Of a DNA stretch of 48,774 bases, positions 3,447 to 31,064 are shown piece after piece. Every line of letters starts with the position of its first letter. The first letter of the stretch is position 1. Both the position numbers and the translations under genes were made by a program. The stretch is from Bacteroidota bacterium. Its GTDB lineage: Bacteria; Bacteroidota; Bacteroidia; Bacteroidales; VadinHA17. The stretch lies in the NCBI GenBank assembly GCA_029552825.1, contig JAKPDL010000077.1:1-48774 (forward strand), written 5' to 3'. The notes under the pieces were generated by a model. The model ran no database searches and had not been told where the DNA came from. It saw only the letters and a list, made by a program, of their open reading frames with translations.

Positions 3447-3447
3447 T

Positions 3448-5486: not shown

Positions 5487-5503
5487 TTGCGAAAAATAAT
5501 GAT

Positions 5504-7912: not shown

Positions 7913-7944
7913 TTTTCATTTTACCAGATTAGTTTTTAACCGCT

Positions 7945-7989: not shown

Positions 7990-8042
7990 TGTAGTTAATT
8001 GATATCACTATTTTGAGAGTCCTGTCTGAATATGAAGAATAA

Positions 8043-8074: not shown

Positions 8075-8096
8075 ATTTTATGTTGATAATCATCAA

Positions 8097-9875
8097 CTAT
8101 TTGCCGTATGCCGGGTCTTGCTGCAGTACACCTTTCTGGATGTCGAGCTGGTCCTGTGGCAATGGCCAGTAGTCGTCACGGTCAGGTTCGTAGACAGCAC
8201 CTGTCATAAAGCCTCTTACCCTTATATCGCGGGCAACATAGGCATCAAGAACTGGTTTGATAATGCCCCAGCGTCTCAGGTCGAAGAAGCGGTGACCTTC
8301 TGTGGCAAACTCAAGTCTGATTTCTTCCCTGACTGCCAGGCGGGCATTTTCTTTAGTATCGAATGGATACTGGCCTGGCACATCAGGATAAGGTTCGACT
8401 TTGTAGTTTGCTGCAGGAGCATTCCAGTCGACTGCACCGGCTGCAAGATTAAGAAGGTCCTTATATTGGGTTACACGACCCTTTATTGGTGTTGTGCTCT
8501 TTGCCCTGTTCCTGATCATGTTCACCAGCTGACGTGCATAATCGAGCTGGCCATCTTCCACGGCGCACTCTGCCCTCCAGAGAATAATATGGCTCAGACG
8601 GTACAATCTGAAGTTGAGTCCGTTATAGAAGCCTGTACCATAGGAGTTAAGAGCCTGCTCTGATTGTGCCTGCATGAACTTCTTGGTCATGAACGGGCCG
8701 CCATTACTCGGGTTTCTTATCCAAGGCTCGCCCGGGTGTATGCCCCATCCCTTGAAATCGATTCCACGGCGTGCGATGGTATAGTCAACACGCGGGTCAA
8801 GTAGATGGTCGGTAGGAATGAACTCATCCGTTCCCTTAAATTTAATGTCATTTGCAAGTGAGTCACGGGCAGCCGGGTCAAGAACAGGCAGGCCGTTTGC
8901 ATCAACCTGAAATGCCTCGAACAGGCTCTGAGAAGGCTGGTAGAATCCCCATCCTCCGCACGAAGCTGCACCTTTCTGGTGTTTTATTGCTCCTGCAAGA
9001 AGCATTCCAGTGTGACCCGTTGATGTAGTCGAACACTGTAGCTCGAATATTGACTCTGAATTGTTTTCGTGAGTCATGTCATAGTTCCAGCCGTATTCAC
9101 TTACAAGGCTGAACTTGCCGCTGTTCAGGATGTCATCCAGCAGGGGCTTTGCAAGGTTATACTCTCCCTGGTACATATGCACCTGAGCTTTAATAGCTTC
9201 GGCAGCATATTTGTGGATGCGGCCATTCTCACCTTTAGGCCTTGTGGTGGGAAGAAGGTTGATAGCTTCCTGAAGGTCAGCCTCAATCTCATCCCAGCAT
9301 GGTGAGTTGTTGGGTACTTCTTCAGGCTTTACATCTCCGAGTTCCTTCTGAGTTTTAATATATGGAATCTTTTCGAAGATTTTGTTTGCCTGGAAGTGGA
9401 ACCATGCCCTCAGAGCTTTTGCTTCGCCTTCTATTTCTTTAGCCCTGGCCTCAGGAATAGGATTAGCGCCTGCCTGTGTTTTCCACAAGTATTCAAGAAC
9501 AAGGTTACAGGAGGCAACGCCATTGTAGCAATCCCTCCATCTCTCGCGCATGTACGGGTTTGAAGGAAGACATTCCCATCTTTCGACATCATTAAATGGC
9601 GTCTGGTCGCCAGGTTCTGTGCCTTTATAGCAGTCGTCCGAAGCACCACTGCCATAAGTCCAATCTGTTCCCATTGCAGAACCGAATATTGACCTTCCCT
9701 TGGTTGCCTGATAAGCAGAGGTCAGAAGGTATTCAACACCTGTCGGGGATTCAAGAACAGAACCTATTGCTGTTCCGTAAGGCTCCTTAGTAAGAAACTC
9801 TTCACTGCATGAATAAATAAGCATCAGGCCTGTGACAAACAGTATGCTCAAAAATAAACTTACAATTCTTTTCAT
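8097..9875 (-). CDS. SusD/RagB-family outer-membrane glycan-binding lipoprotein
   Basis: 592 residues starting at MKRIVSLFLS; the frame is open further upstream but that extension overlaps susC and lacks a signal. The lipoprotein signal ends LIYSC, followed by SEEFLTKEPYG, a typical SusD N-terminus. The protein then shows the helical SusD architecture, with a C-terminal half ending in the usual REEIRLEFATEGHRFFDLRRWG and YWPLPQDQLD motifs. SusD proteins form the lid of the SusC channel and bind oligosaccharides at the cell surface. It lies 26 bases after susC and is co-transcribed with it. The substrate is inferred from the neighbours to be an arabinose-containing glycan. Confidence 0.95.
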   Translation of the reverse strand: MKRIVSLFLSILFVTGLMLIYSCSEEFLTKEPYGTAIGSVLESPTGVEYLLTSAYQATKGRSIFGSAMGTDWTYGSGASDDCYKGTEPGDQTPFNDVERWECLPSNPYMRERWRDCYNGVASCNLVLEYLWKTQAGANPIPEARAKEIEGEAKALRAWFHFQANKIFEKIPYIKTQKELGDVKPEEVPNNSPCWDEIEADLQEAINLLPTTRPKGENGRIHKYAAEAIKAQVHMYQGEYNLAKPLLDDILNSGKFSLVSEYGWNYDMTHENNSESIFELQCSTTSTGHTGMLLAGAIKHQKGAASCGGWGFYQPSQSLFEAFQVDANGLPVLDPAARDSLANDIKFKGTDEFIPTDHLLDPRVDYTIARRGIDFKGWGIHPGEPWIRNPSNGGPFMTKKFMQAQSEQALNSYGTGFYNGLNFRLYRLSHIILWRAECAVEDGQLDYARQLVNMIRNRAKSTTPIKGRVTQYKDLLNLAAGAVDWNAPAANYKVEPYPDVPGQYPFDTKENARLAVREEIRLEFATEGHRFFDLRRWGIIKPVLDAYVARDIRVRGFMTGAVYEPDRDDYWPLPQDQLDIQKGVLQQDPAYGK

Positions 9876-9901
9876 ATCTTTCTTTATTAAAGATTTACAA
9901 A

Positions 9902-12900
9902 TTACAAACCAAAGGAAATACCGAAAATAAACTGTTTCGGTGTAGGCCATGCACCTGAGTCAATTCCCATGTTGATTCCAACCGCGGAGATTTCAGGATC
10001 AAGTCCGGTATACTTCGTTAAAGTAAACAGGTTCGTACCCTGGAAGTAAACCTGCAGATTGCTGAGTTTGTTCTTCAGTAACCTGTTCAGGTCATATCCA
10101 ACTCTTAATGACCTTAAACGCAAATATGAACCGTCCTCAACGAAGAATGTAGAAGGCTCCTGGTGACGGGAGTCATTTGAGTAAATAATAGGCATTGTTG
10201 CTTTTGAATTGTCACCGTTTAGGTACGGGCTTCCCCATGATTCATAGAGCCTTTTCTTCGACTTACCCGATGGGAACTGTGTAAAGTCAATGAAACGGCG
10301 TACATAGTTCACAATTTCATTTCCGTAGGAGGCATAGAAGTTTGCATTGACATATAATCCTTTATATTCAACGTCAAGTGTCAAGCCTGCTGTGAAATCA
10401 GGATGTGGTGAACCGATGTAGGTTCTGTCGTTCGAATCTATATATCCGTTCCCGTCAACATCCTTGTATTTGAAGCTTCCGGGTGCATTGTAATTTCCGG
10501 TTGCACCGAATGCTTTTGGCCATGCGTCAACCTCAGCCTGATCCAGGAAGATACCCTCGCATACCCATCCAAAGAATTCGGGGAATGCTCTGCCCGATTG
10601 TGTTCTTGTATATATCTTTTCACGGTAGGTACTGCCCTGGTAGAAGTCGGTGGCAACATCTGTGAGCCTTACAACTTCATTTTTATAGGTTGTAAACACC
10701 ACGTCAGCACTGTACCTGAGGTCTCCGCCGAGAGCACTATTGGAATAGCCTAACTGGAGGTCAATACCGGTATTCTTCATTTCACCTATATTGATTGATG
10801 GTGAAGACACGTTACCAACAACAAGCGGAATCTGTTTCGGATAGAGCATGTCGCTTGTAGTTTTCTGCCACAAATCAAGATTAATTGTAAGGTTTTTCAG
10901 AATAGTAGCATCAATACCTATATTGGTTGTTGTTGACTTCTCCCATTTCACTTTGGTATTACCCAGTGATGACAGATAGAAACCGGTAGTTCCGAGTGTT
11001 GTATTGGAGCCATCAAATGGATAAGCTCCGTAAACTGTTCCTGATGTTCCGGTAGTAAACTGAGTAAAGCTGTTGTAGTTACCCATACGGTCGTTACCAA
11101 CAACACCGTAACCTACGCGGAGTTTAAGGTCGGTCAGCCAGCTTGATGTTGCAGCCATAAAGCTTTCCTGGGTGATTCTCCATCCGAGTGAGACAGCAGG
11201 GAAGATACCGTATTTCTTTTCCCCGAAGCGTGAAGAACCATCACGGCGTACAACACCCTCTAACAGATACTTGTCGGCAAATGAATAGTTGATACGTCCG
11301 AAAATTGAGAAGAGGCTGTTTTCACCGTAAGGAGCACCTGAGTTGGTAATGTCGCGCAGACCTGTATTCATCGTCATGTACTGTGTGGCATCGAATGAGA
11401 ACAGGTTTCTTGATGCTGAGAAAGATATACCTTCAGTATCATAGGCTTCAGTACCTGCAATTACCTTAAGGTTATGCTGACCGAAGATAATAGAGTACTC
11501 GGCAGTGTTGGTCCATGTCCAGTTAACGCCTGTCCCTGCAGAATAGCCAAGGTAATCATATGTGCCTCTTTCTGCATGGGCAACCTCAACATAGTTAATA
11601 TTGTTTGAGAAGTAGGAGTTGTAGTTAACACCTATACGCGACTGGATTGACAGACCTTTCAGAATATTAAACCTAATAAAGGCATTGCCACTGAGGTTAA
11701 GGCTCTTTGTATAATCCCACTGATTTTTGTCAAGCAGGAAGATAGGGTTCTGTGCATTACCGAGGTCTCCTGCCCTGGTACCTGCGTAAGTTTTCCCTGA
11801 GATATCAAATACCGGAATTATCGGTGGAATTCTGTAGCACCACGATACTATTGAGCTCTCGGAGTTATCATTGCCTGTATAACCGTAGTTATATGTATAA
11901 TTACCTCCGATTGTTGTACCAAGGTCTATCCATTTGGCAGGGCTGGTGTTTACAGTTGTCCTGAAGTTAAGCCTGTTGTAGCCGGTGTATTTAAAGATAC
12001 CGTCATCCTGGAGGTAACCGAGCAGGAATGCATAGGTTGTATTTTGTGTACCACCGGCAACATCAATCTGAAGATCTCTGTAAGTGCCGTTACGTGTTGC
12101 TTCCTTGAACCAGTCGGTACCTATCTTGTTTGCTTTTGTGATAAGATATGTATCGGTTCCGTCCTGCCATGAGAGTTTGTTATCGTAAAGGCTTGGGTCT
12201 GTTCCGGGGTCACCTTCTTTTGCACCGGCAGGGAAGATATAATCAGGGATTACAGGTGTAGGCCCGGTTCCATACTGTTTATGGTTTGGTGAAAGACCTG
12301 CATTTTTGAACTCCAGCCAGAGCATTTCACCGTATTCCTGGGTATTCAGAAGGTCATAGAATTTTGAACTGTGCGTGATACCCTGCATATAATTTACATT
12401 CAGTGAAACTTTCTGGTTCTTGCGGCCTGATTTTGTTGTTATCAGAACCACGCCGTTTGCAGCACGTGCACCGTAGATTGACATTGCTGCTGCGTCTTTC
12501 AGAATGGTTATTGACTCAACGTCGTTAGGTGCATAAGTGCCACCTGGTACGCCATCAACAACATAGAGCGGGCTGGCATCGTTAATGGTTGTCATACCAC
12601 GTATTCTGATGTTGGCTCCGGCACCGGGGGTGTGGGCGTTGAGGATCATCACACCTGCAACCTTACCCTGCAGACGCTGTATTGCACTTGCAGATGTCTG
12701 CGTTGCCAGCGCTGTTGCATTAACAGTTGAAACAGCACCTGTAAGGGTCTTTCTTGCCTGTGTTGAATAACCTATCACAACTACTTCATCCAGAGCAGAC
12801 ACAGCTTCCACCAGTACAACATCAATAACACTCAGGTCGCCTACTGTTTTCTCCTGTGTGACAAAACCAACAAACGAGAAAGTCAATACAGAAGCAGGAC

Positions 12901-13189
12901 CTGCAACATTGATCTGGTATCGTCCGTCTGCATCTGAGATGGTACCATTGGTTGTACCTTTTTCAATGATATTTACACCCGGCAGGGGATTCCCTGCAGC
13001 GTCAGTAATCCTGCCTGTGACCCTTTTCTGCTGCATAAAACTCCCTGCATAGTTTCCGTCATCAGCCGCTGATGAAGCGAAAACAGGCATGGCCATCGCA
13101 AGCAACATGAAAAGTGCCACAAGTTTTAAGGCAAAGTTAATCCCTAACATTGCCCTAAACCGGAAATTTCGCAGTACTTCTTTTGTCAT
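9902..13189 (-). CDS. SusC/RagA-family TonB-dependent transporter
   Basis: 1095 residues. After a signal sequence (hydrophobic LVALFMLLAMAMPVFA, about residues 24-39) comes a carboxypeptidase-regulatory-like domain (VTGRITDAAGNPLPGVNI, about residues 56-135). The plug follows (DEVVVIGYSTQ and GVVLITTKSG), then a beta-barrel ending in FIFGISFGL with a C-terminal aromatic-type anchor. SusC proteins import oligosaccharides across the outer membrane with energy from TonB-ExbBD. It is paired with susD downstream. No SusR, HTCS or ECF-sigma/anti-sigma regulator is encoded nearby, so regulation must come from elsewhere. A good promoter and a long leader precede it. Confidence 0.96.
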   Translation of the reverse strand: MTKEVLRNFRFRAMLGINFALKLVALFMLLAMAMPVFASSAADDGNYAGSFMQQKRVTGRITDAAGNPLPGVNIIEKGTTNGTISDADGRYQINVAGPASVLTFSFVGFVTQEKTVGDLSVIDVVLVEAVSALDEVVVIGYSTQARKTLTGAVSTVNATALATQTSASAIQRLQGKVAGVMILNAHTPGAGANIRIRGMTTINDASPLYVVDGVPGGTYAPNDVESITILKDAAAMSIYGARAANGVVLITTKSGRKNQKVSLNVNYMQGITHSSKFYDLLNTQEYGEMLWLEFKNAGLSPNHKQYGTGPTPVIPDYIFPAGAKEGDPGTDPSLYDNKLSWQDGTDTYLITKANKIGTDWFKEATRNGTYRDLQIDVAGGTQNTTYAFLLGYLQDDGIFKYTGYNRLNFRTTVNTSPAKWIDLGTTIGGNYTYNYGYTGNDNSESSIVSWCYRIPPIIPVFDISGKTYAGTRAGDLGNAQNPIFLLDKNQWDYTKSLNLSGNAFIRFNILKGLSIQSRIGVNYNSYFSNNINYVEVAHAERGTYDYLGYSAGTGVNWTWTNTAEYSIIFGQHNLKVIAGTEAYDTEGISFSASRNLFSFDATQYMTMNTGLRDITNSGAPYGENSLFSIFGRINYSFADKYLLEGVVRRDGSSRFGEKKYGIFPAVSLGWRITQESFMAATSSWLTDLKLRVGYGVVGNDRMGNYNSFTQFTTGTSGTVYGAYPFDGSNTTLGTTGFYLSSLGNTKVKWEKSTTTNIGIDATILKNLTINLDLWQKTTSDMLYPKQIPLVVGNVSSPSINIGEMKNTGIDLQLGYSNSALGGDLRYSADVVFTTYKNEVVRLTDVATDFYQGSTYREKIYTRTQSGRAFPEFFGWVCEGIFLDQAEVDAWPKAFGATGNYNAPGSFKYKDVDGNGYIDSNDRTYIGSPHPDFTAGLTLDVEYKGLYVNANFYASYGNEIVNYVRRFIDFTQFPSGKSKKRLYESWGSPYLNGDNSKATMPIIYSNDSRHQEPSTFFVEDGSYLRLRSLRVGYDLNRLLKNKLSNLQVYFQGTNLFTLTKYTGLDPEISAVGINMGIDSGAWPTPKQFIFGISFGL

Positions 13190-19525: not shown

Positions 19526-19843
19526 CTTTCAAATTTTATCTGATAAGTTCAATTTGAGCCCGCAACCCAAAACTCCCATTCTTTCTTGAATGTTAAAATG
19601 CAAAATAATTACATCAGAAACAAAGATTACAAAATTCAAACAAATAATAACTTCCCGGTATTCGTTATTATGCCTTTCTTTTTCTTTTTGAGACTTCACC
19701 GGTTTATTTATCTCTCTTAAATTATTTATTTTGAAGGCTGAAAAAATTATTTTTTAATCCACTTATCGGAGATTTTATAAGGAATTTTAATTCATGAAAA
19801 AAAATTATTGAAGTTGGTTGAAAACAATATCCCGGAGAGAGAG
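19526..19843. other. Divergent intergenic region
   Basis: 318 AT-rich bases between the divergent barrel-protein gene and the histidine kinase gene. It must hold promoters for both sides. I looked for TTTG-N19/21-TAnnTTTG on both strands and found only near-matches (for example TTATTTTG around 19727-19734). No RNA gene, repeat or open frame of note was seen. Confidence 0.5.
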
Positions 19844-20884
19844 ATGAAGAGGGGTTTTAGGAGTCACTCTCTGATAAAGCTTCTGGTTGTGGGCATGATC
19901 AGTGCTGTTTTTGTGCTTTACCCCAATATTGCTTTTTTTTCATTTGAGAGAGACTATCTTGGGGAGGCCAAATATGCAGCATATTTGTTTTTCTTTATTT
20001 TCAGGTTCGTTTACTTTTCGCTTCTGATATGGGTACTTCTTGTTTACAATCTCAGAAAATTAAAAACACCTTTTTTAACCAAACGTCTCATTTATACCTT
20101 CTTTATCACAGCAGCGGGATATCTGGTCTATATTGTGTTTTCAATCCTGTTGAGTCCTAAGCCTGAGTGGTACTCAGGTCTGTTGCTGTTTCAGTTTTTT
20201 GTGATGTTCATATTCTGTGGTCTTATAGGGCATGTTTTTCATCTATATGAGGAGCAGCACAGAAAAGAGCAGGAAATTGAAAGGCTAAAACACGAAAACC
20301 TTCAAAGTCGTTATATTGCACTTGCCAATCAGATTAATCCGCACTTTTTCTTTAATTCACTGAACGGACTTGTTTCCGTGATCCGTAAAAAAAATGAAGA
20401 AAATGCCATTGAATATGTAAACAAACTATCCGATGTATTCAGGTACATTCTTCAAAGTGACAGGAAAGGACTGGTTTTGCTCGAGGATGAACTGGAATTC
20501 GTAAGGGCATTTCAGTATATGATGGAGGTAAGGTTTGCCAGTAAACTGGTATTCAGTATAAATGTAAGTGATGAAATGAAAGCTCTGAAACTGCCTGTAC
20601 TTTCTCTCCTTCCTCTGATTGAAAATGTTGTTTTGCATAATACAATTGACAGCGAACACCATATGGAAGTGGATATTTACGTTAATTCTGAGAGAGAGCT
20701 GGTGGTCTCAAATCCTGTATATCCAAAACTATCGCCACCTGAGACTAACGGTACGGGTCTTAAAAACCTTGAAAATCGCTTTATTTTATTGATGAATAAG
20801 CATATAAGGGTAGAAAAAGATAACATAAGATTTACAGTTTATTTACCTCTGAAAAGTAAAAACGATGAGGATACTGATAGTTGA
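19844..20884 (+). CDS. Sensor histidine kinase, LytS/YehU type
   Basis: 346 residues from the ATG at 19844, which has a purine-rich GGAGAGAGAG just before it; a TTG start 12 codons upstream is less likely. The N-terminal part has about four membrane helices (to about residue 145) and a short coiled coil. Then comes the His_kinase (PF06580) domain: phospho-acceptor His167 in NQINPHFFFNSLN, then the N-box LLPLIENVVLHN, and a degenerate ATP lid with GTGLKNLENRF. It senses an unknown signal and phosphorylates the LytTR regulator encoded immediately downstream with a 20-base overlap. Confidence 0.9.
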   Translation: MKRGFRSHSLIKLLVVGMISAVFVLYPNIAFFSFERDYLGEAKYAAYLFFFIFRFVYFSLLIWVLLVYNLRKLKTPFLTKRLIYTFFITAAGYLVYIVFSILLSPKPEWYSGLLLFQFFVMFIFCGLIGHVFHLYEEQHRKEQEIERLKHENLQSRYIALANQINPHFFFNSLNGLVSVIRKKNEENAIEYVNKLSDVFRYILQSDRKGLVLLEDELEFVRAFQYMMEVRFASKLVFSINVSDEMKALKLPVLSLLPLIENVVLHNTIDSEHHMEVDIYVNSERELVVSNPVYPKLSPPETNGTGLKNLENRFILLMNKHIRVEKDNIRFTVYLPLKSKNDEDTDS

Positions 20885-21623
20885 AGATGAGACAGCAGCT
20901 TATGAAAACCTGCTGAGTGTTATTAAAAAAATTGACCCTGAAATTGAAATTGCAGGTTGTGCAGAAAGTGTCAGGCAGACCATACGCTGGCTGAGAGCCA
21001 ACCCAATACCTGACCTGATACTTATGGACATCCACCTGTCAGATGGTTCTGCTTTTTCTATTTTCGACAGTATAAATGTTGAATCGCCGGTGATTTTCAT
21101 AACTGCCTATGACGATTATGCAATCGAAGCTTTTAAAGTCAACAGTATCGACTACATACTCAAACCCATTAAAGAAGAGGATTTAAGAAGGGCACTCGAG
21201 AAGTTTAAAAAGCTCACTCATCATGATATTCTTAAATATCTTGCGCAGATGACACAAATGGTTTCGCTTCCGGTGTATAAAGATAAATTATTGATTCCGG
21301 AAAAAGATAAACTGATTCCGGTTGATATCAACGAAATATCGTGCTTTTATTCTACTGAAAAGAATACCAGGGTGTTCCTGAAGAACGGTAAATCGTACCA
21401 GTGGAACAGATCACTCGAACAGATTGAAGAGGGACTCAACCCTGCTGATTTTATAAGAGCAAACAAGCAATATATTATCTCGAGAAGCAGTGTTAAGAGT
21501 ATTACCGTATGGTTTGATAACCGTCTTCTTATCACTCTTGATACGGAAACACCTGAGAGAATTTATGTTAGTAAAAATAGAGCAGCTGAATTCAAGGCAT
21601 GGATGATGCATGGGAAGAAATAG
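20865..21623 (+). CDS. LytTR-family response regulator
   Basis: 252 residues. The receiver domain spans about residues 1-120, with phospho-acceptor Asp55 in LILMDIHLSDG, acidic residues near the N-terminus (VEDE), and the conserved Lys in DYILKPI. A LytTR DNA-binding domain follows (about residues 140-245: RANKQYIISRSSVKSI). The gene overlaps the kinase gene by 20 bases, which ties expression of the two together. The PQQ-like propeller gene starts 136 bases downstream on the same strand, so that gene, the terpenoid operon or the divergent barrel gene are the likely targets. LytTR proteins bind paired direct repeats, and I did not find an obvious pair. Confidence 0.9.
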   Translation: MRILIVEDETAAYENLLSVIKKIDPEIEIAGCAESVRQTIRWLRANPIPDLILMDIHLSDGSAFSIFDSINVESPVIFITAYDDYAIEAFKVNSIDYILKPIKEEDLRRALEKFKKLTHHDILKYLAQMTQMVSLPVYKDKLLIPEKDKLIPVDINEISCFYSTEKNTRVFLKNGKSYQWNRSLEQIEEGLNPADFIRANKQYIISRSSVKSITVWFDNRLLITLDTETPERIYVSKNRAAEFKAWMMHGKK

Positions 21624-21759
21624 CAGATTATTGTTTCGTGATACTTCCTGATTTTTCACTTTTAAGGTAAATCTATGGTTGCGTATTAATTTTATTGCAA
21701 TATTTGTGTTGAAGAAGTTGATATTTAACGGTTTAATAAAAACTTAAAAAAATTTGAAA

Positions 21760-23049
21760 ATGAAACATTTAAAGAGCTATCTGGTAATCAGCCTGATTAT
21801 TGCAGGTGTTATTAATGTTTGTGCCCAGGACTGGCCCCAGATTTTCGGGCCAAACAGGAACAACATATCTCCTCAGAAGGGTCTTCTCAGATCCTGGCCT
21901 GAAAAAGGACCCCAGCTTTTATGGAGTGTTGATGTAGGTCCGGGTTATGGTGGTCCTGTAGTAAAAGACGGGAAAGTCTATTTGCTCGACAGGGTAGACG
22001 ACGCAAAAGAAATTATGAGATGCTTCGATCTGAACACCGGGAAGGAATTGTGGAAGTTCGAGTACGATGCCCCCGGAAAGGTTGACCACCCTGGCTCAAG
22101 ATCGGTGCCTACTGCTGACGGTAATTATGTATATTCTGTCGGACACAATGGTGATCTTTATTGTTTTGATGTAAACACACATAAGCCTGTCTGGCAGAAA
22201 AACCTTATGAAGGATTTTGGCGGCACCAAACTGCCGGTATGGGCAATAACCCAGAGCCCACTCATTTATGGGGATCTGCTTATTGTGGCTTATTCAAAAG
22301 ACCCGTACGCAGGATTGGTTGCATATAATAAACGTAACGGAAACATTGTCTGGCAGACAGATGCAATAGGCAATGAAACCTATGCAAGTCCGGCAATTGC
22401 AAAAATTGGAGGCGAAGATCATATCGTAATGGTATTTTCATCAACCAATACGTTTATGCACAGAAATATACCAACTTCGTCGGGTAAGATTATTGGTCTG
22501 AAACCCCAGACAGGAGCAATTCTCTGGGAGTACAATAACTGGACGAACGTTATTCAGATTCCTCTTGCACTTGACATTGGAGACGGGAGAATAATTGTTG
22601 TAGGCGGTTACGACCATGGTGTGGTCATGATTCAGGTTCAGAAATCTTCAGATGGAAAATACAATGTTAAAGAGTTGTTCTATCATACCAATTTCGGGGA
22701 CCACACAAAACCTCCCATATTTTACAACAATCACTTTTATGCCCAGTATTCAACAAATAACAAGCGCGACGGATTGGTATGCATGGATATAAACGGGAAT
22801 GTTTTGTGGAAGACCATGCGTGAACCACTGTTCGACAAAGGAAGCATGATTCTGGCCGACGGGCTTATTCTGGCTACCGACGGAAGGCAAACCCTGTACC
22901 TGATAGAGCCTGATCCGGCAGGTTTCAAACCCCTGGCATCAGCACAGTTGTTAGGTGAAGGGCAAAATTGGTCACCTATGGCCCTGGTTGATGGAAAACT
23001 GTTATTACGGGATCAAAGCAAAATGATCTGCGTAAAAGTTGCCAGGTAA
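21760..23049 (+). CDS. Secreted PQQ-like beta-propeller protein (copy 2)
   Basis: 429 residues from the ATG at 21760, with a signal peptide ending VCAQ and a mature N-terminus QDWPQIFGPNRNNIS. Propeller repeats of the PQQ_2 type run through the protein, for example KVYLLDRVDDAKEIMRCFDL, YCFDVNTHKPVWQ and RNGNIVWQT. It is highly similar to copy 3 at 29718 along the whole length (shared NETYASPAIAKIGGEDHIV-type and FGDHTKPP segments) but lacks a short insertion before QNWSPMAL that copies 1 and 3 have. It sits between the two-component system and the terpenoid operon. The function is unknown, and it is extracytoplasmic by its signal peptide. Confidence 0.85.
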   Translation: MKHLKSYLVISLIIAGVINVCAQDWPQIFGPNRNNISPQKGLLRSWPEKGPQLLWSVDVGPGYGGPVVKDGKVYLLDRVDDAKEIMRCFDLNTGKELWKFEYDAPGKVDHPGSRSVPTADGNYVYSVGHNGDLYCFDVNTHKPVWQKNLMKDFGGTKLPVWAITQSPLIYGDLLIVAYSKDPYAGLVAYNKRNGNIVWQTDAIGNETYASPAIAKIGGEDHIVMVFSSTNTFMHRNIPTSSGKIIGLKPQTGAILWEYNNWTNVIQIPLALDIGDGRIIVVGGYDHGVVMIQVQKSSDGKYNVKELFYHTNFGDHTKPPIFYNNHFYAQYSTNNKRDGLVCMDINGNVLWKTMREPLFDKGSMILADGLILATDGRQTLYLIEPDPAGFKPLASAQLLGEGQNWSPMALVDGKLLLRDQSKMICVKVAR

Positions 23050-23386: not shown

Positions 23387-24196
23387 ATGTCAGTCAGGAC
23401 GAACATAAAACGGATTCTATTCTGCAATTGCAGAGGAGGAAGGGTGCCTGATGAAAAGCTCAATGAAATAAAATCGGAGCTTGACAGGATGCCTGCTGGA
23501 GTTATAATCCTTTCCGACCTTTGTGGAGTGTCAGTTGTAAAGAGAGAGCTAATGGCTGAGATCTTCAGATATCCTTCAGAATGGCTTATAATTGGATGTT
23601 ATGCAAGGGCAATGAATCTTATCCTTGAGCAAATGACCGGTAAAAGTATTCTTCAAGGTAAAATTCAGTTTATTAACAGTGAAACGACATCCATGCCGGA
23701 TATTAAGACTAAGTTGAATGAGTATTGTGCTGGAATGACAGTTGAGGATTCGGCAGAAATTACTGAAATTACTGATGACTCAGGCTGGCCATCATGGTAC
23801 CCTGTTATAGACTATTCGCGTTGTACAAACTGTGGGCAGTGTGCTGAATTCTGCCTTTTCAGTGTATATGAGAAGAAATCTGAGAAGGTTAAAGTAATCT
23901 TCCCTCAAGGCTGTAAGAATCAGTGTGCAGCCTGTGCACGGATATGCCCCTCAACAGCAATTATTTTCCCGAAATACAAAAATGGAGGCGCCATTGGTGG
24001 TGCAGACTATTTTGACGAAAATGAAGAACTTATTAGACGGGAGGCAGATGTTAAAACATTCCTGGGAGATGATCTGGTGTTGGCTCTTCGCAAGAGACAA
24101 TTGAAGATGAATTCTATCATCAGGGAAGAAGCTTCCAGAAAGGCAATTGAAGAAAGAGAAAAATTCCTTTTGAAAAATAAAGAAGACCAGGCATAA
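23387..24196 (+). CDS. Double [4Fe-4S] ferredoxin-like protein
   Basis: 269 residues, cytoplasmic. Cys146, Cys149, Cys152 and Cys156 form a classic CxxCxxCxxxC cluster site. Cys176, Cys180, Cys183 and Cys187 form a second site with an extended first gap (CKNQCAACARICP). The N-terminal 130 residues carry further cysteines in CNCRGG, SDLCGV and GCYARAM, a pattern reminiscent of the Fe-S N-domain of HdrA-type proteins, though I cannot confirm this. The C-terminus is a charged helix. It is the first gene of a five-gene operon and most likely passes electrons to the radical SAM enzyme, whose gene starts two bases after this stop codon. Confidence 0.8.
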   Translation: MSVRTNIKRILFCNCRGGRVPDEKLNEIKSELDRMPAGVIILSDLCGVSVVKRELMAEIFRYPSEWLIIGCYARAMNLILEQMTGKSILQGKIQFINSETTSMPDIKTKLNEYCAGMTVEDSAEITEITDDSGWPSWYPVIDYSRCTNCGQCAEFCLFSVYEKKSEKVKVIFPQGCKNQCAACARICPSTAIIFPKYKNGGAIGGADYFDENEELIRREADVKTFLGDDLVLALRKRQLKMNSIIREEASRKAIEEREKFLLKNKEDQA

Positions 24197-24198
24197 AC

Positions 24199-25377
24199 AT
24201 GTCAATACTTAAAAATCTTATTAAAACGGATAAGCGCTGTCTGAGGATATTCCTGATGAATATGGTTGTTAAAGGCATATTGGGGTTTATCAGGTTCCGC
24301 AAGAGAATTAAAAATGGTAGTATGTTTCCTGCTTTTCAGTTTATCTCTGTCACAAATAATTGCAATCTTCATTGCCAGGGATGCTGGGTGGAGGTAAACG
24401 GCCCTAAAATTAATATTGAGCCAGAAAAAATTGATGCTGTAATTAGGGCAGGCAAGAAATATGGTTCATATTTTTTCGGAATTCTTGGAGGAGAACCGCT
24501 TTTATACGATGGATTGTTTGATATATTCGAAAAACATCCTGATTGTTATTTTCAACTTTTTACAAACGGTACTCTTTTGACAAAGTCAACTGCTCAACGT
24601 TTGCGTAGAGCAGGTAATGTAACACCCCTTATAAGCCTTGAAGGAGATGAATATGTTGCTGACATAAGAAGAGGCGGGCACCGGATCTACAACCGCACCG
24701 TTGAGGCAATTGAAACATCTGTTTCTGAAGGACTCATAACCGGTGTTGCAATCAGTGTGTGCAAATCGAATTTTGAAATGGCTGTTTCTGATGAATTTGT
24801 CAATATGCTTCATGATTCAGGGGTAATATACCTCTGGTATTATATTTACAGGCCTTCAGGTAGTGATCCTCATTATGAACTGGCTCTGAATACCAGTGAA
24901 ATAACAAAGCTGAGAAACTTTATTGTTGATGCCCGTACCCGGCTCCCGTTAATTCTGATTGATTCTTACTGGAACGAAAAAGGGATTCCTTTTTGCCCTG
25001 CTATTGCCGGACTGAGCCATCATATCAATCCATCAGGAGATATTGAACCCTGTCCGGTAATTCAGTTAAGTTGTGAAAATCTGCAATACGGTGAACCAGG
25101 GAGCTTGTATGAAAATTCTTTATTCTTAAGGGAATTCAAAGAGCAGCTCAGAGAGAAGACAAACGGTTGTATATTGATGGAGGACCCCGCCTGGCTGGTT
25201 CATTTTTCGGAGAATCATAAGGCTAAAAATACATCAAACCGTGAAAATTATCTTACCAGCCTGCTGAAAGCACCATCAATACCAAGCCATAGTTCATCAC
25301 CATTAATTCCTGAGAAAAAACTATTGTATCGTATTGCAAAGAAAACAGCGTTTTTTGGTTTAGGAGCATATGGTTAA
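24199..25377 (+). CDS. Radical SAM enzyme of the terpenoid cluster
   Basis: 392 residues, cytoplasmic. The SAM-binding cluster motif CX3CX2C is Cys55, Cys59 and Cys62 (NNCNLHCQGCW), followed by the GGE-type motif GILGGEPLLYDG for SAM binding. The C-terminal third has extra cysteines (FCPAIAG, IEPCPV, LSCENL and NGC) that could hold an auxiliary SPASM-like cluster, together with INPSGDIEPCP, a typical SPASM/twitch phrase. It would generate a 5'-deoxyadenosyl radical to modify a substrate. Operon position beside a prenyl synthase and a terpene cyclase suggests an isoprenoid substrate, similar in principle to HpnH in hopanoid synthesis, but the sequence does not fix this. Confidence 0.85.
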   Translation: MSILKNLIKTDKRCLRIFLMNMVVKGILGFIRFRKRIKNGSMFPAFQFISVTNNCNLHCQGCWVEVNGPKINIEPEKIDAVIRAGKKYGSYFFGILGGEPLLYDGLFDIFEKHPDCYFQLFTNGTLLTKSTAQRLRRAGNVTPLISLEGDEYVADIRRGGHRIYNRTVEAIETSVSEGLITGVAISVCKSNFEMAVSDEFVNMLHDSGVIYLWYYIYRPSGSDPHYELALNTSEITKLRNFIVDARTRLPLILIDSYWNEKGIPFCPAIAGLSHHINPSGDIEPCPVIQLSCENLQYGEPGSLYENSLFLREFKEQLREKTNGCILMEDPAWLVHFSENHKAKNTSNRENYLTSLLKAPSIPSHSSSPLIPEKKLLYRIAKKTAFFGLGAYG

Positions 25378-25382
25378 TTGAA

Positions 25383-26975
25383 ATGGAAAAGACTGTTGAA
25401 AAAATATTGCCATTGGTTGTTCCTGTTGAGAAGCAGGTTCGCGATGAGATAAGGATAAAAGCGACCCTGTTCACATCGGAGCAAAATTTACTGCCACCAG
25501 TTACTATTGACAAACTTGAAGTTATTGCAAGTGAGGTACTTAATAAATACGGGTGGGACGAAAGGTACAAGGCATTTGTAATGGTATGCTGTGGCAATGC
25601 TCTATGGAGGCCGGTTGTGGCTTCTATACCATATAACAGAAGATTATTGCTTTTGCCACAATGCCTTAAAAACAGCAAAAAATGTGTGGCAGGAGAAGAT
25701 GAATTCGGATTATTATGTGGGGGATGTGGCAACTGCAATATCCCTGAATATTTGCAGGAAGCTGAGAATCTGGGCTATCTTACCATTGTTGCCGAAGGCA
25801 CAACAATAGCATCAAAATTAATCGAGAGCGGGAAAATAGAAGCAATAGTCGGAGTGGCATGTATGGAATCTCTCCAGAAAATATTTAAAACCATAAACTC
25901 ATATTTTGTACCGGCTATTGGTGTTCCTCTGGTTTTTAACGGTTGCACGGACACTATTGCTGATGAGGATTGGCTCAGAGAAGAGCTCCATTATTACGCT
26001 AATGACAACCAGTTCAGTCTTCTTAACCTGCACAGTCTTAAAAAAGGGACTATATCTATATTTAACACAGAACAAATAAATAAACTACTTAAGCTTTCAG
26101 ATTCCACAAACGATGAAATTGTAAAAACTTTAATGCTTTCAGGAGGCAAAAGGATGCGTCCGCTCCTGGCAATATTAAGCTATAAAGCATTCAAAAATAA
26201 TACAGATGAAAAGTTATTGAAAAACCTGGCTATGTCAATCGAGTGTTTTCATAAGGCATCCCTTGTTCACGATGATATTGAAGACGAAGATAGTTTGCGT
26301 TATGGAAAGAAGACAATTCATGCTCAGTATGGAGTGCCAATAGCAATTAACACAGGAGATTTTCTTATTGGTGAAGGTTACAGACTGATCTCGGAATGTG
26401 ACATGGATGCCAGTGATAAAGTTGAGTGTCTGAAAATAATCTCCGAAGGACACAGTGCTATGGCCAAAGGACAGGGGAATGAACTTCTTGCAAGAAAGAA
26501 TAATATTCTTTTACCTGTAAATGAGCTACTGGAAATATATAAAAATAAAACCGGAGAGGCAATCAGGGTTGCCTTACTTACAGGTGCTATTGCCGGGGGT
26601 GCTGACGAAAGGGTATTAAAAATTTTAAGTCGTTTTAGCTACCTGTTTGGCATTGCTTATCAACTTAATGATGATCTTGAAGATCTGAAAGAGGTGTCAT
26701 CAACATCTTCTTTAAAAAATCCAAATATTCTGATTTCTATTCTCGCAGAAAGTAAGGACCTCAACCTCAGGGAGGCTCTCCATAATGCTGTAAGTAACAA
26801 TGATTTTTGTTTACTAAGGGAGCTTATAGTTAATTCAAATATTAAGGAAGAAACTGAGAGTCTGATATCAATGTACATAAATCTTATATATGAATGCCTG
26901 GCTGAGCTGAATAACATTACTTTAAAAATTGCCTTGCATGATATCGTTGGAAAAATTTTTGGAAAATACCTTTAA
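25383..26975 (+). CDS. DUF116 domain fused to trans-polyprenyl diphosphate synthase
   Basis: 530 residues. Residues 1 to about 215 match DUF116: VCCGN with Cys69/Cys70, Cys94, Cys101, and a compact CxxCxxC at Cys112, Cys115 and Cys118 (LCGGCGNC), then GVACMESL and FNGCTDT. From about residue 225 the chain is a class I isoprenyl diphosphate synthase: GGKRMRP, first aspartate motif Asp297-Asp298-x-x-Asp301 (HDDIEDED), GDFLIGEGY, GQGNELL, and second motif Asp430-Asp431-x-x-Asp434. All catalytic aspartates are intact, so it should condense IPP with an allylic diphosphate. DUF116 has no established reaction and is usually found near radical SAM genes. The continuous frame shows a true fusion. Confidence 0.88.
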   Translation: MEKTVEKILPLVVPVEKQVRDEIRIKATLFTSEQNLLPPVTIDKLEVIASEVLNKYGWDERYKAFVMVCCGNALWRPVVASIPYNRRLLLLPQCLKNSKKCVAGEDEFGLLCGGCGNCNIPEYLQEAENLGYLTIVAEGTTIASKLIESGKIEAIVGVACMESLQKIFKTINSYFVPAIGVPLVFNGCTDTIADEDWLREELHYYANDNQFSLLNLHSLKKGTISIFNTEQINKLLKLSDSTNDEIVKTLMLSGGKRMRPLLAILSYKAFKNNTDEKLLKNLAMSIECFHKASLVHDDIEDEDSLRYGKKTIHAQYGVPIAINTGDFLIGEGYRLISECDMDASDKVECLKIISEGHSAMAKGQGNELLARKNNILLPVNELLEIYKNKTGEAIRVALLTGAIAGGADERVLKILSRFSYLFGIAYQLNDDLEDLKEVSSTSSLKNPNILISILAESKDLNLREALHNAVSNNDFCLLRELIVNSNIKEETESLISMYINLIYECLAELNNITLKIALHDIVGKIFGKYL

Positions 26976-27813
26976 AACACACTTTTTCCCAGATCCAAAG
27001 ATATCTGAGGGAAGAAGCATAAAGGCAGTTCTTAAAAAATCACTGGAGCTTCTGAAAGATGAAGTAATAAACGATGTCAGAAATTTTGTTCTCAAAATGC
27101 AGCATCCTTCCGGAGGATTTATTGACAGAGCAGGCAACCCCGACATGTATTATACATTATTCGGTTTTTTTCTCGCAGATGTTCTTGGTCTTAAGGAAAA
27201 TCTTCAAAGAACAGGAAAATATGCTGAAGATGAAATTAGTTACTCAATGCCAGAGGGTGTTCATCTGCAATGTGCCGCGATACTTTTGACCGAATTATCA
27301 GATAACCGGCAAATAAAAAACAAAATAAGAAGGCAGATCCGCCGTGACGTGGTCATGCCACATAAAGAAAAAAATGAATATTATGCATTTGTAAATCTGC
27401 TTGCCAGCCTTTATACGAGAGACTATATTGTTTTGCGCCAAATTTATAAACTATTAAGCCGGTTAAATCAATCAGATGACCTGCCTGTAACTGTTATTGC
27501 CGCATCACTTATTTTATACAGTACATTTAAGAAACCGGCTGAACACCTCAGGCAGAAACTTCTGGATTTTTATGACAATCAGGGAGGCTTCAGAGCTGTT
27601 AAAACCATAGCTCTTCCTGATTTACTTTCAACGGCAGTATCACTTTATGCTCTCAGTTATACTGGATTTGATCTTCTATTGATTAAACCTGAATGCCTTG
27701 GTTTCATTGATAGTCATTATATTAATGGGGGTTTTTGTGCAAGCGTTGCTGATCGCCAGACTGACATTGAATATACTTTTTACGGACTTCTTGCTCTTGG
27801 TTCACTGGCATGA
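26938..27813 (+). CDS. Small alpha/alpha-barrel, terpene cyclase/prenyltransferase-beta-like protein
   Basis: 291 residues from the ATG at 26938 (a TTG three codons earlier is possible); it overlaps the upstream gene by 38 bases and the downstream gene by four (ATGA). The sequence has repeats typical of the (alpha/alpha) barrel shared by protein prenyltransferase beta subunits and class II terpene cyclases: QHPSGGFIDRAGNPDMYYTLFGFF, FYDNQGGFRAV and NGGFCASVADRQTDIEYTFYGLLAL. No DxDD motif is visible. It may be a partner subunit or a degenerate barrel domain for the 597-residue cyclase, since the two together are longer than a normal cyclase. Function is inferred from fold and position only. 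Confidence 0.7.
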   Translation: MISLEKFLENTFKTHFFPDPKISEGRSIKAVLKKSLELLKDEVINDVRNFVLKMQHPSGGFIDRAGNPDMYYTLFGFFLADVLGLKENLQRTGKYAEDEISYSMPEGVHLQCAAILLTELSDNRQIKNKIRRQIRRDVVMPHKEKNEYYAFVNLLASLYTRDYIVLRQIYKLLSRLNQSDDLPVTVIAASLILYSTFKKPAEHLRQKLLDFYDNQGGFRAVKTIALPDLLSTAVSLYALSYTGFDLLLIKPECLGFIDSHYINGGFCASVADRQTDIEYTFYGLLALGSLA

Positions 27814-29603
27814 TAATTATGGAAAAAGAAATCATACTGCGGAAATATTATGACTTATGCCAGAGGCTGAAGTCTGAGGTTAACTCAGGCGGATTCTGGA
27901 AGGGGTATCTCTCAACCAGTGCATTGTCGACGGCAGTTGCAATAGTGGCGCTGAAGGTAAATGGAGCCCCAGTTGATAAGGAGAGGATCAAAGCAGGCTT
28001 CGACTGGTTATGCAAAAATATAAACTCTGACGGAGGCTTTGGAGACACAACGAATTCTTTAAGTAATGTGAGCACAACTCTTCTTTGCTACAGTGCAATT
28101 AGTTATTGCCAGACTGAAGGTAGTTGTAGTTCACTTCTCCAGAAGATGGAAAGATGGTTGTCGGGTAATGGAATAGACCTTAATCCCCACACAATTACAA
28201 ACACTATTTTGAAGTTTTATGGGAAAGATTACACATTTTCAGTCCCAATACTTTCGATGCTTACTATCTGTGGAGTTATACCTGAGTCATGTATAAATAA
28301 TATACCCCGGTTGCCATTTGAACTGGCAATTTTACCACAAAGATTCTACAGGTTTTTAAATCTGGGAGTTGTAAGCTATGCTCTGCCTGCACTTATAGGT
28401 GTTGGAATATACCTTCATAGGGCAGGCAAGAGAACTTATGGCTTATATGGTAAAATCCGGACATTACTCATTGAGCCTGCTATTAAAAAACTTGAGAAAC
28501 TTGTTCCCGAAAGCGGAGGATTTCTTGAAGCAATACCCCTTACAGGATTTGTTGTGATGTGCCTGAAAGCAGCAGGGAAATCAGATAATTCAATAATAGA
28601 AAAAGGTCTTGAATTTCTTCGCAGGCAACAGAGGGAGGATGGCGGATGGTCTGTAGACACTGACCTTTCAACCTGGATAACCACTCTCGCCATTAAAGCA
28701 TTTGGAAACGACCTCAGGAATCAGTTTGATGATATGCAGATTCAAGTACTGAGAAAACATATTTTATCGCTGCAATACAGTGTGAAACATCCTTTTAACG
28801 GAGCGAAGCCCGGTGGATGGGGTTGGACGAACTATTCTGGTTCGGTACCGGATGCAGATGACACCTCGGGTGCAATACTGGCATTACTTGAAATCTATTC
28901 AGAAGCTGAAGAGGAGAAGAGAGCTATCATCGATGGTTGTAAATGGCTTGCCAGCTTGCAGAATTCTGATGGTGGGTTTCCGACATTTTGCAAGGGATGG
29001 GGACATCTTCCCTTCGACAGCAGCTGCCCCGACATTACAGGCCATGCTATCCTGGCCTCAGTCAGGACTAAGGCCGTTTTATCATCATATTTAACCCGTA
29101 AAATAAGAAACAAACTTGATAATTGCGTAAACAGGGCAGTTAAATATCTTGAGAAAAATCAGTCTATTAATGGAGAGTGGGTACCTCTCTGGTTCGGAAA
29201 TCAGCAAACAGCAGATAAAACAAACCCGGTTTATGGAACTGCCAAAGTATGCACATATTTAATTGATTCTCTTAAATTTATTACATCCTGTACTGAATTG
29301 AGCAACCGAATCAGGAAAATGATAAGAAGAGCCCAGGACTATCTTATTGAATCTCAGAACCCTGATGGGAGTTGGGGAGGAGGGAAAGGAGTTGCAGGTT
29401 CGGTAGAGGAAACAGCACTTACTTTATGTGCCCTTGCAGGGGAAAACGAAGAAATATGCAGCAAGGGCATAGAATGGCTTGAAAAACAGGATTTTGAGCA
29501 TGCTTCTCCCATAGGACTCTATTTTGCATTGCTCTGGTATTATGAAAAAATGTATCCCCTCATATTTAGTACTGAAGCTTTTAGAAGAATAGCAAGTAAT
29601 TAA
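27810..29603 (+). CDS. Class II terpene cyclase, squalene-hopene cyclase-like
   Basis: 597 residues, a little shorter than the usual 620-720 of squalene-hopene cyclases. The protonating motif DxDDT is intact: Asp348, Asp350 and Asp351 in VPDADDTSGA, preceded by the family phrase KPGGWGWTNYSG. At least five QW-like repeats are visible: SDGGFGDTT, QQREDGGWSVDTDLSTW, QNSDGGFPTFCKGWG, INGEWVPLWFGNQQ and QNPDGSWGGG. The enzyme should start cyclisation of a polyene by protonation, at or in the membrane. No squalene synthase gene is present in the window, so its substrate could be squalene made elsewhere or a prenyl diphosphate from the adjacent synthase. It is the last gene of the operon. Confidence 0.85.
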   Translation: MIIMEKEIILRKYYDLCQRLKSEVNSGGFWKGYLSTSALSTAVAIVALKVNGAPVDKERIKAGFDWLCKNINSDGGFGDTTNSLSNVSTTLLCYSAISYCQTEGSCSSLLQKMERWLSGNGIDLNPHTITNTILKFYGKDYTFSVPILSMLTICGVIPESCINNIPRLPFELAILPQRFYRFLNLGVVSYALPALIGVGIYLHRAGKRTYGLYGKIRTLLIEPAIKKLEKLVPESGGFLEAIPLTGFVVMCLKAAGKSDNSIIEKGLEFLRRQQREDGGWSVDTDLSTWITTLAIKAFGNDLRNQFDDMQIQVLRKHILSLQYSVKHPFNGAKPGGWGWTNYSGSVPDADDTSGAILALLEIYSEAEEEKRAIIDGCKWLASLQNSDGGFPTFCKGWGHLPFDSSCPDITGHAILASVRTKAVLSSYLTRKIRNKLDNCVNRAVKYLEKNQSINGEWVPLWFGNQQTADKTNPVYGTAKVCTYLIDSLKFITSCTELSNRIRKMIRRAQDYLIESQNPDGSWGGGKGVAGSVEETALTLCALAGENEEICSKGIEWLEKQDFEHASPIGLYFALLWYYEKMYPLIFSTEAFRRIASN

Positions 29604-29717: not shown

Positions 29718-31064
29718 ATGGACAAAAGAACTGTCAGATTACTGTTTTCTTCTGTTGCAGTATTTTTTATAATGCTAAATGTTTGCGCTCAGGACTGGCC
29801 ACAGGTTTTTGGCCCAAACAGGAATAACATCTCACCGCAGAAAGGCATACTACGCTCATGGCCTGAAAAGGGACCTGAAATTCTGTGGAGTGTAGAACTG
29901 GGCAGGGGATTCGGTGGGCCGGTTGTAAAAGACGGCAAAGTCTATCTTCTCGACAGGGAAGAAAATCAAAAAGATATCTTGCGCTGTCTGGATTTTGGTA
30001 CAGGAAAAGAACTCTGGAGATTTGAATACGAAGCTCCCGGATCTGTAATGTTCCCCGGTTCACGGAGCGTCCCCACCGTTGACGGAAATTATGTTTATTC
30101 AGTTGGTCACAACGGCGACCTTTACTGTATAAACATCAACACACACAAACCTGTATGGCACAAAAACCTGATGACCGATTTTGGCGGTGCCAGATTGCCT
30201 ATATGGGCTATAACACAATGCCCTCTTATTTACGGAAACATGCTCATCGTATTGTATTCACAGGATCCCTATGCCGGTGTTGTTGCCTTCAATAAGCTTA
30301 CAGGCGATATTATCTGGAAGACAGATCCTATCGGGAATGAAACTTATGCAAGTCCCTCTATTGCAAAAATAGGTGGTGAGGATCATATAGTAGTTGTGTT
30401 TTCATCAACAAATCCAATAGGCCACAGGGAGGTCCCGAGGTCAATGGGTAAGATTGTTGGATTTAAGCCACAGACTGGTGAGATCCTCTGGGAATACAAC
30501 AACTGGGAAAATCATATACAGGTGGCGCCTCCTCTTGATGCAGGTGAAGGAAGAATAATTGTGGTAGGTGGCTATGAACTTGGTACAGCAATGATTCAGG
30601 TTGAGAAACAGGCCGGTGGCAAATACAGTGTTAAAGAGATTTTCAGGCATAATGACTTCGGAGACCACACAAAGCCTCCAGTATTGTACAACGGTTATTT
30701 CTATGCACAGTTTTCTACCAACAGTAAACGCGATGGCCTTTGCTGCATGAGCATGGACGGAAAGGTGATGTGGAAAACGATGCGCAATCCTTCATTCGAT
30801 AAAGGTAGCATGATATTTGCAGATGGACTAATTATTGCTTCCGACGGAGCAACGAAACTGTACCTGATTGAACCTGACCCGTCAGGGTTTAAACCTGTTG
30901 CGACAGCTTCATTGCTCAGCGAAGGAGGAGCGGGTTCTGAAAATGACCCTGTTGCCTCAAGAGTAGCAGGCTCAACACAGAACTGGTCTCCGATGGCACT
31001 TGCAAATGGCAAGCTACTGCTGAGGGATCAGAGAAAATTAATATGTGTGAGAGTTGCTAAGTGA
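29718..31064 (+). CDS. Secreted PQQ-like beta-propeller protein (copy 3)
   Basis: 448 residues with a signal peptide ending VCAQ and mature N-terminus QDWPQVFGPNRNNIS, nearly the same as copy 2. The blades include KVYLLDREENQKDILRCLDF, LYCININTHKPVWH and LTGDIIWKT. It has a Ser/Gly-rich insertion (GGAGSENDPVASRVAG, about residues 407-422) before QNWSPMALANGKLLLRDQ, also found in a variant form in copy 1 but missing from copy 2. No haem or obvious catalytic motif is seen. Together with copy 2 it brackets the terpenoid operon, which suggests duplication around it. Confidence 0.85.
   Translation: MDKRTVRLLFSSVAVFFIMLNVCAQDWPQVFGPNRNNISPQKGILRSWPEKGPEILWSVELGRGFGGPVVKDGKVYLLDREENQKDILRCLDFGTGKELWRFEYEAPGSVMFPGSRSVPTVDGNYVYSVGHNGDLYCININTHKPVWHKNLMTDFGGARLPIWAITQCPLIYGNMLIVLYSQDPYAGVVAFNKLTGDIIWKTDPIGNETYASPSIAKIGGEDHIVVVFSSTNPIGHREVPRSMGKIVGFKPQTGEILWEYNNWENHIQVAPPLDAGEGRIIVVGGYELGTAMIQVEKQAGGKYSVKEIFRHNDFGDHTKPPVLYNGYFYAQFSTNSKRDGLCCMSMDGKVMWKTMRNPSFDKGSMIFADGLIIASDGATKLYLIEPDPSGFKPVATASLLSEGGAGSENDPVASRVAGSTQNWSPMALANGKLLLRDQRKLICVRVAK

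Follow-up and report, generated by a model that had tools for sequence, protein, structure and literature searches.

A conserved five-gene operon of Bacteroidota and other phyla as a possible squalene-independent pathway to a cyclised polyprenoid lipid

The window analysed here, a stretch of 48,774 nucleotides that makes up contig JAKPDL010000077.1 (assembly GCA_029552825.1) of a bacterium of the phylum Bacteroidota, carries at positions 23387-29603 of the plus strand five consecutive genes, termed g1 to g5 in 5' to 3' order, which code for an Fe-S protein, a radical S-adenosylmethionine (SAM) protein, a fusion of DUF116 with a trans-polyprenyl synthase, a small toroid protein and a class II cyclase. 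These genes form a conserved unit whose arrangement is not due to chance, because the same five-gene order occurs in 53 of 82 non-duplicate cyclase loci. On the basis of sequence and predicted structure, we give about even chances to the reading that these genes are dedicated to making a cyclised polyprenoid lipid independently of squalene and to tailoring it by Fe-S and radical chemistry. The polycyclic membrane lipids of bacteria are for the most part accounted for by way of squalene. If correct, the proposed pathway would thus be a new and separate squalene-free route to bacterial polycyclic lipids, present in several phyla and testable in cultured strains, and it would provide the first biochemical context for DUF116. 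The enzyme families concerned are known; the open-access literature found describes neither the fusion with its rebuilt isopentenyl diphosphate (IPP) site nor this clade of cyclases nor the combination of the five genes, and no account of this operon was met there.

The source genome (3.38 Mb, 97.6% complete) has Bacteroidales/Prolixibacteraceae-like organisms as its nearest-hit relatives. As a preliminary description made from the letters alone had stated, the calls of open reading frames (ORFs) place the five genes on one strand with gaps of 2 (g1-g2) and 5 bases (g2-g3) and overlaps of 38 (g3-g4) and 4 bases (g4-g5). Gene g1 (23387-24196) codes for a double [4Fe-4S] ferredoxin-type protein of 269 amino acids with an extra N-terminal domain, g2 (24199-25377) for a radical SAM protein of 392 amino acids with a CX3CX2C motif, g3 (25383-26975) for the non-canonical DUF116-synthase fusion of 530 amino acids, g4 (26938-27813) for a single-domain alpha/alpha-toroid protein of 291 amino acids when read from the ATG at 26938 (the earliest start given by the ORF caller is a TTG at 26929), and g5 (27810-29603) for a class II cyclase of the squalene-hopene cyclase superfamily of 597 amino acids, with DADDT at residues 348-352. 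For the comparison of loci, GTDB genomes were scanned with an alignment of six cyclases, which returned 321 relatives; the best 80 were fetched, favouring Bacteroidota, and 75 of these together with seven regions from relatives make up the 82 loci, the duplicates L019, L022, L023, L048 and L070 having been left out. Synteny was counted by searching all six frames with a profile for each of the five genes, since the ORF filter drops genes that lie beneath longer overlapping frames and the count from filtered ORFs (43/81) is too low. Filtered ORFs underlie the gap lengths, neighbour clusters, propeller count and conservation rows reported here, and these rows were picked by score and length thresholds, so that badly diverged copies lie outside the counts. 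Where the sequence upstream of g5 extends for 6.5 kb or more, the complete set, on one strand and in order, was found in 48 of 65 loci. Median gaps across loci are 9, 11, -38 and 8 bases; of the 59 pairs in which g3 and g4 are adjacent, 20 show the identical 38-base overlap, by visual count in the filtered-ORF listing. A promoter and terminator scan was uninformative, with 24 and 8 sites where 24.3 and 7.0 were expected. The 29 loci without the complete order comprise g5 alone (10), g1-g5-g3 and g4-g5 (three each), g2-g3-g4-g5, g3-g4-g5, g2-g1-g3-g4-g5, g1-g3-g4-g5 and an opposite-strand g2 before g1-g3-g4-g5 (two each), and g5-g3, g1-g5 and g1-g2-g4-g5-g3 (one each).

The assignment of g5 to the class II cyclases by its DxDD motif is borne out by the conservation of DxDDT in 81 of 81 aligned cyclases. 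In Pfam the protein matches the N- and C-terminal SQHop_cyclase domains (SQHop_cyclase_C, 115.6 bits, cut-off 26.1), and its AlphaFold2 model (predicted local distance difference test, pLDDT, 93.3; predicted template modelling score, pTM, 0.93) has the beta-gamma double toroid fold of squalene-hopene cyclase 3sqc. In the structural comparison that had been recommended, this enzyme is the best solved match (template modelling score, TM, 0.76/0.74; 19% identity), as well as the nearest solved structure by sequence, followed by drimenyl diphosphate synthase, with a TM of 0.66/0.79 and a range of 0.65-0.67 when normalised by query and 0.78-0.83 by target; further bacterial class II diterpene cyclases are among the fold matches. 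In a profile alignment the PDADDT stretch of g5 pairs with the DxDD of squalene-hopene cyclase (SHC), and D408/H412 pair with its DVTAH stretch. H412 is present in 81/81 sequences, and position 408 is Asp in 76 and Glu in five. The SHC counterparts are presumably D447 and H451, which we take to have catalytic helper roles. The scores remain far below the cut-offs of the hopene-cyclase model TIGR01507 (97.4 bits, cut-off 431.1) and the squalene-cyclase model TIGR01787 (110.3 bits, cut-off 322.7). As judged by its sequence, g5 is a member of a separate clade with the fold and the acid residues of squalene-hopene cyclases.

The partner synthase g3 joins DUF116 (108 bits, cut-off 25) to a polyprenyl_synt domain (156 bits, or 155.8 before rounding; cut-off 27), and the 50 fold matches listed for the fusion are all prenyl-synthase-type entries. 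It was aligned in 66 rows against Escherichia coli IspA (C15) and IspB (C40) and two other synthases of its own genome. With IspA and IspB it shares both Asp-rich motifs (the first, DDxxD, in 66/66; D1, D2 and D5 of the second in 63, 66 and 63), the K-T and Q positions and the first Arg of the RRG motif (66/66 each); it thus has the two Asp-rich motifs and the above-cut-off Pfam match that characterise trans-isoprenyl diphosphate synthases. In contrast to these enzymes, it has lost the second Arg of RRG in all 66 rows (Tyr in 64, Asn in one and Asp in one, so that RRG becomes RYG), a residue present in 4/4 reference enzymes and in five aligned solved enzymes. In human farnesyl diphosphate synthase the corresponding residue, R113, is in contact with phosphate at the IPP site (PMC3539973). 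Moreover, g3 has gained a Lys at position -6 of the first motif (66/66, against 0/4 references), and its GKxT motif looks degenerate, with the Lys in only 13 of 66 rows of an alignment that is gappy there. The earlier description of the synthase motifs of g3 as intact holds for both Asp-rich motifs, but the IPP site is remodelled in 66/66. The sequences point to an intact allylic site next to a rebuilt IPP site, and the latter is the least expected molecular feature of the operon. This change may reflect altered IPP binding in which the new Lys replaces the lost Arg, the use of another acceptor, or a class I ring closure like that of YtpB, and ordinary chain elongation by g3 is therefore not assured.

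Small residues at positions -5/-4 of the first Asp-rich motif permit long chains. At these positions g3 has A/S in 66/66 rows, compared with A/T in IspB, Y/S in IspA, and A/S and F/T in the two synthases of its own genome, and its pocket residues thus appear to be of the long-chain type. The naming of the latter two synthases is ambiguous, one scoring best as a geranylgeranyl diphosphate (GGPP)-type enzyme (240 bits in NCBIfam) and the other almost equally as short-chain (207.5 bits), heptaprenyl (206.9) and octaprenyl (200.7) synthase, all below cut-off; only the E. coli enzymes therefore serve as yardsticks for chain length. The DUF116 part contains seven Cys that are invariant in 66/66. Among 14 control genomes DUF116 occurs in two methanogens only, and a search of the open-access literature returned no function for it.

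The preliminary description had noticed the lack of a squalene synthase in the window, and this extends to the whole genome: a search with PF00494, the squalene/phytoene synthase (SQS/PSY) family, detected no member in the own genome or in 21 of the 48 further genomes that carry the cyclase, with 7 of 14 control genomes positive. Among carriers that are isolates, as judged by record title, six of eight have no family member (L059, L065, L069, L071, L080 and L090) and two have one (L045 and L050). Marinifilum flexuosum DSM 21950, Acanthopleuribacter pedis KCTC 12899, Pontiella sulfatireligans F21 and Mangrovibacterium lignilyticum are among the carriers in culture. Because the own genome and 21/48 carriers have no SQS/PSY homologue, squalene is unlikely as the general substrate of the operon. 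SqhC of Bacillus belongs to the squalene-hopene cyclase superfamily. The nearest precedent for the proposed pathway is the C35 sesquarterpene route of that genus, which likewise is squalene-free and uses a linear long-chain polyprenyl diphosphate on which a cyclase of this superfamily acts. In that route HepS/HepT produce linear heptaprenyl diphosphate that is converted by YtpB and then by SqhC (PMC7839719). The present operon differs in its DUF116-fused synthase and in its Fe-S and radical SAM genes. A YtpB-type sesquarterpene pathway as such was rejected, as PF10776 was found in 0/27 carriers and in the B. subtilis control.

The remaining genes point to redox and radical chemistry. The double [4Fe-4S] character ascribed to g1 stands, with the eight cluster Cys of its two motifs kept in 58/58 sequences; four further N-terminal Cys (C13, C15, C46 and C71) are present in 48-49 of 58. 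Likewise, g2 scores above the cut-off of the Radical_SAM family (65 bits, cut-off 29.5), and C55/C59/C62 of its CX3CX2C motif are invariant in 53/53, as are C266-X13-G280-X4-C285 and C324. This C-terminal pattern presumably resembles the auxiliary-cluster domain of twitch/SPASM proteins (CX9-15GX4C, then further Cys that ligate one or more auxiliary clusters). None of the 25 NCBIfam families listed for g2, out of 55 matched, reaches its cut-off. HpnH, the adenosylhopane synthase, is likewise a radical SAM enzyme in the context of a class II cyclase, and HpnH-like chemistry had been suggested for the operon. The identity of g2 with HpnH was rejected (TIGR03470, 39.8 bits against a cut-off of 225.05), and g2 differs by its three further invariant C-terminal Cys, HpnH having been judged by model score; this chemistry is thus one option, and a weak one. 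The description of g4 as a small alpha/alpha-toroid protein is upheld by a single weak Pfam match (27.6 bits, cut-off 26.5); we take it to resemble protein-prenyltransferase beta repeats. Its single toroid domain, together with the scores of g2 against several SPASM peptide maturases, all below their cut-offs, would fit toroid proteins that act on a peptide or protein modified by g2. We regard this as very improbable, since g5 retains the full DxDDT/His cyclase machinery and the neighbour clusters, which comprise ORFs of at least 80 amino acids, revealed no recurring small gene for a precursor.

In the proposed pathway, the intact allylic site of the g3 synthase domain would bind an all-trans polyprenyl diphosphate of long chain length, about C30 or more. 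Given the exchange of the second Arg for Tyr and the additional Lys in the remodelled IPP site, g3 would then either elongate this chain with altered IPP binding or ionise it, in order to join it to another acceptor or to close a ring at the diphosphate end. The DxDD/His pair of g5 would protonate the chain at its far, omega, terminus, as in squalene-hopene cyclase, and close two or more rings, with g4 as a putative accessory toroid assisting g5. Electrons would pass from g1 to DUF116 and to g2, both of which would reduce the chain or ring or add functional groups to it. We infer, as had been suggested, that the product is a cyclic lipid modified by radical chemistry or reduced. It would belong to the cell envelope, and in this lineage its formation or its use would be linked to the adjoining LytS/LytTR pair and beta-propeller proteins.

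A more specific version, which is speculative and which we consider a long shot, would make the operon a bacterial source, so far missing, of polycyclic polyprenoids with regular head-to-tail linkage of the tricyclohexaprenol type, formed without squalene by the remodelled fusion and a polyprenyl-specific class II cyclase and finished by the radical SAM enzyme. Tricyclohexaprenol is a hypothetical bacterial lipid that has been proposed as the precursor of sedimentary tricyclic terpanes (PMC9247107, PMC10319793 and a work cited in PMC6770870), and the terpanes are called orphan biomarkers, their precise sources being unknown (PMC9247107). If this version were true, the pathway would be a possible source of the tricyclic terpanes (cheilanthanes), open to lipid analysis of culturable carriers.

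Several points weigh against a squalene-independent pathway for a long-chain cyclic lipid. No acceptor-modifying gene that would name the product is present among the annotated recurrent neighbours. In two Planctomycetota loci (L063 and L095), a B12-type radical SAM gene, recognised by a model below cut-off, takes the place of g2 between g1 and g3. An SQS/PSY-family gene is present in 27 of the 48 other carriers, an upper bound for squalene makers, as the family includes phytoene synthases and the types were not told apart. This last observation, along with the proximity of g5 to squalene-hopene cyclase in sequence and fold, speaks for a divergent squalene cyclase in a hopanoid- or sterol-type pathway that draws on squalene made elsewhere in the genome. 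Hopanoid operons with HpnH indeed resemble the present one in the cyclase fold, the DxDD motif and D-H pair, QW-like repeats and a nearby radical SAM gene. However, many carriers, including the own genome and six of the eight isolates mentioned above, have no SQS/PSY homologue, g5 reaches 97 bits against the 431-bit hopene-cyclase cut-off, and g2 lies far below the HpnH cut-off. The squalene-based reading is therefore largely rejected and seems highly improbable to us.

The inference of chain length is open to question too, as it depends on the two residues at -5/-4 and the rule given for them above. Taken as a whole, the sequence of g3 leans weakly the other way: among the NCBIfam models it scores highest, though under the cut-off, against farnesyl diphosphate synthase (127 bits, cut-off 275), followed by HepT (123) and IdsA (120), and its top solved relatives are C15/C20 enzymes. 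The solved class II diphosphate cyclases for C15/C20 fit the fold of g5 nearly equally well. Many bacterial class II cyclases of the size of g5 act on C15 or C20 substrates. It is thus conceivable that g3 supplies farnesyl diphosphate (FPP) or GGPP, that g5 is a diphosphate cyclase of the drimenyl or copalyl type, with which it shares the beta-gamma fold and a DxDD-type acid at about 13-16% identity, and that g1 and g2 modify a small terpenoid. We find this rather unlikely, given the D-H pair that g5 keeps in alignment with SHC and the invariant A/S of its synthase partner, which is close to IspB and unlike IspA.

The linkage of the operon is also not universal, which counts against the pathway proposed here. 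A scatter of homologues devoid of synteny, which would have refuted the preliminary description, was not what the survey showed, though g3 was not seen near the cyclase in 14 of 82 loci, six of which have at least 6.5 kb upstream, the other eight lying on contigs that are short or cut. Each of these 14 genomes has, at another place, a DUF116 gene that matches the g3 profile, in two of them (L117 and L119) on frames cut within the prenyl-synthase part, and in four of the 14 the unlinked g3 adjoins g2 within the small region retrieved. Two further genomes among the 16 checked for DUF116, L074 and L094, have g3 in the cyclase locus. In a separate set of 60 relatives, DUF116 was found in frames of at least 529 amino acids, the size of the fusion, in 8/8 cyclase carriers and 0/52 non-carriers; the fusion is hence present in every carrier tested (8/8 and 16/16, with one genome common to both sets). 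As the fusion is found elsewhere in the genome where it is not beside the cyclase, the two proteins seem to cooperate also where their genes are unlinked. Twelve of the non-carrier relatives have shorter DUF116 genes (frames of 112-387 amino acids), perhaps with another function of the domain.

As to its spread, the 53 complete loci are mostly from Bacteroidota, with three from Acidobacteriota (L046, L057 and L091), one each from Lentisphaerota (L082) and Planctomycetota (L096), one from an uncertain Spirochaetes bin (L044), and L040 and L097. These last two are titled Akkermansiaceae and Eubacteriales, respectively; their cyclases fall inside Bacteroidota clades, that of L097 adjoining a Parabacteroides sequence (L093) on very short branches. 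They are probably mis-binned contigs, and Bacillota is therefore not counted as a carrier phylum. In the cyclase tree, carriers belong to Bacteroidota, Acidobacteriota, Planctomycetota, Verrucomicrobiota, Kiritimatiellota and Lentisphaerota, and taxa are clustered (81 rows, eight of them ungrouped; 10 changes, compared with 27.7 on average for shuffled labels). Among the 60 relatives the cyclase was detected at E <= 1e-20 in eight, namely the own genome, 5 of 35 other congeneric species and two of the 24 genomes that belong to other families. When 395 genomes were drawn evenly from the phylum, the own genome was the sole match, and the cyclase is therefore sporadic in the phylum. A search of plasmids returned weak matches only, with 0/20 records spanning 80% of the query.

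The genes around the operon, which the preliminary description did not mention as recurrent neighbours, include a LytS/LytTR pair, PQQ-type propellers, CobW and NapH/NuoF-like genes. On the plus strand of the window lie a LytS-type sensor histidine kinase (19808-20884) and a LytTR response regulator (20865-21623), whose orthologues adjoin the operon as a pair in five other non-duplicate loci (L014, L015, L024, L029 and L076; 57-66% identity for LytS and 60-73% for LytTR). A PQQ_2-type beta-propeller with an N-terminal hydrophobic leader (21754-23049) and a second one (29718-31064), 70% identical to the first and also on the plus strand, flank the operon. The corresponding pair is in tandem in L014, L021 and L029, and the gene order around the operon is therefore shuffled. 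In 38 of 81 loci such PQQ-type propeller genes are located no more than 6 kb from the gene set. Other recurrent neighbours, named from one or two annotated representatives per cluster (some smaller clusters being without annotation), are NapH-like (18 loci), CobW (15), ABC ATPase (11), NuoG/FAD-type (10), NuoF-type (9), ArsP permease (9), IscS-type (8) and GcvH-like (7) genes.

Omega-cyclic menaquinones exist in Nocardia, though our literature search did not confirm this. Redox modules adjoin the operon in many loci, and this, with the IPP-site Arg lost in 66/66, would be in line with a meroterpenoid or quinone pathway in which g3 prenylates a non-IPP acceptor or g5 cyclises a menaquinone-like side chain, yielding a redox-active lipid for the NapH/NuoF-like and propeller proteins. 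We think this improbable: the annotated neighbour clusters contain no UbiA-type or ring-making gene, and the NapH-like gene, found in 8/8 carriers, is unspecific, as it is also present in 29 of 52 cyclase-free relatives and common in the genus where the operon is absent. A NapH/NuoF-like redox module as an obligatory partner was rejected on the same count, the NapH-like gene being a partner module at most. In L013 (11556-19249), genes for a NuoF-type protein (786 amino acids), an FAD/2Fe-2S protein (532 amino acids), a NapH-like protein, a ferredoxin and a propeller are linked, and ferredoxin, NapH-like and propeller genes are linked in L018 (10786-19386); both groups look like an electron-transfer chain. 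In the Acidobacteriota loci L049 (1296-5829), L056, L065 and L091, GcvH-like, IscS-type or CobW genes lie upstream of g1, which suggests that sulfur or metal handling is tied to the pathway. A cluster of ArsP_1-type permeases (PF03773, representative L036) is located downstream of g5, sometimes after another gene, in nine Bacteroidota loci (L030-L034, L036-L038 and L041). Further upstream in the window, positions 123-13189 hold an FGGY-type kinase, an alpha-L-arabinofuranosidase and a GH127 protein beside a SusD/TonB-dependent receptor pair, which looks like an ordinary polysaccharide-use locus.

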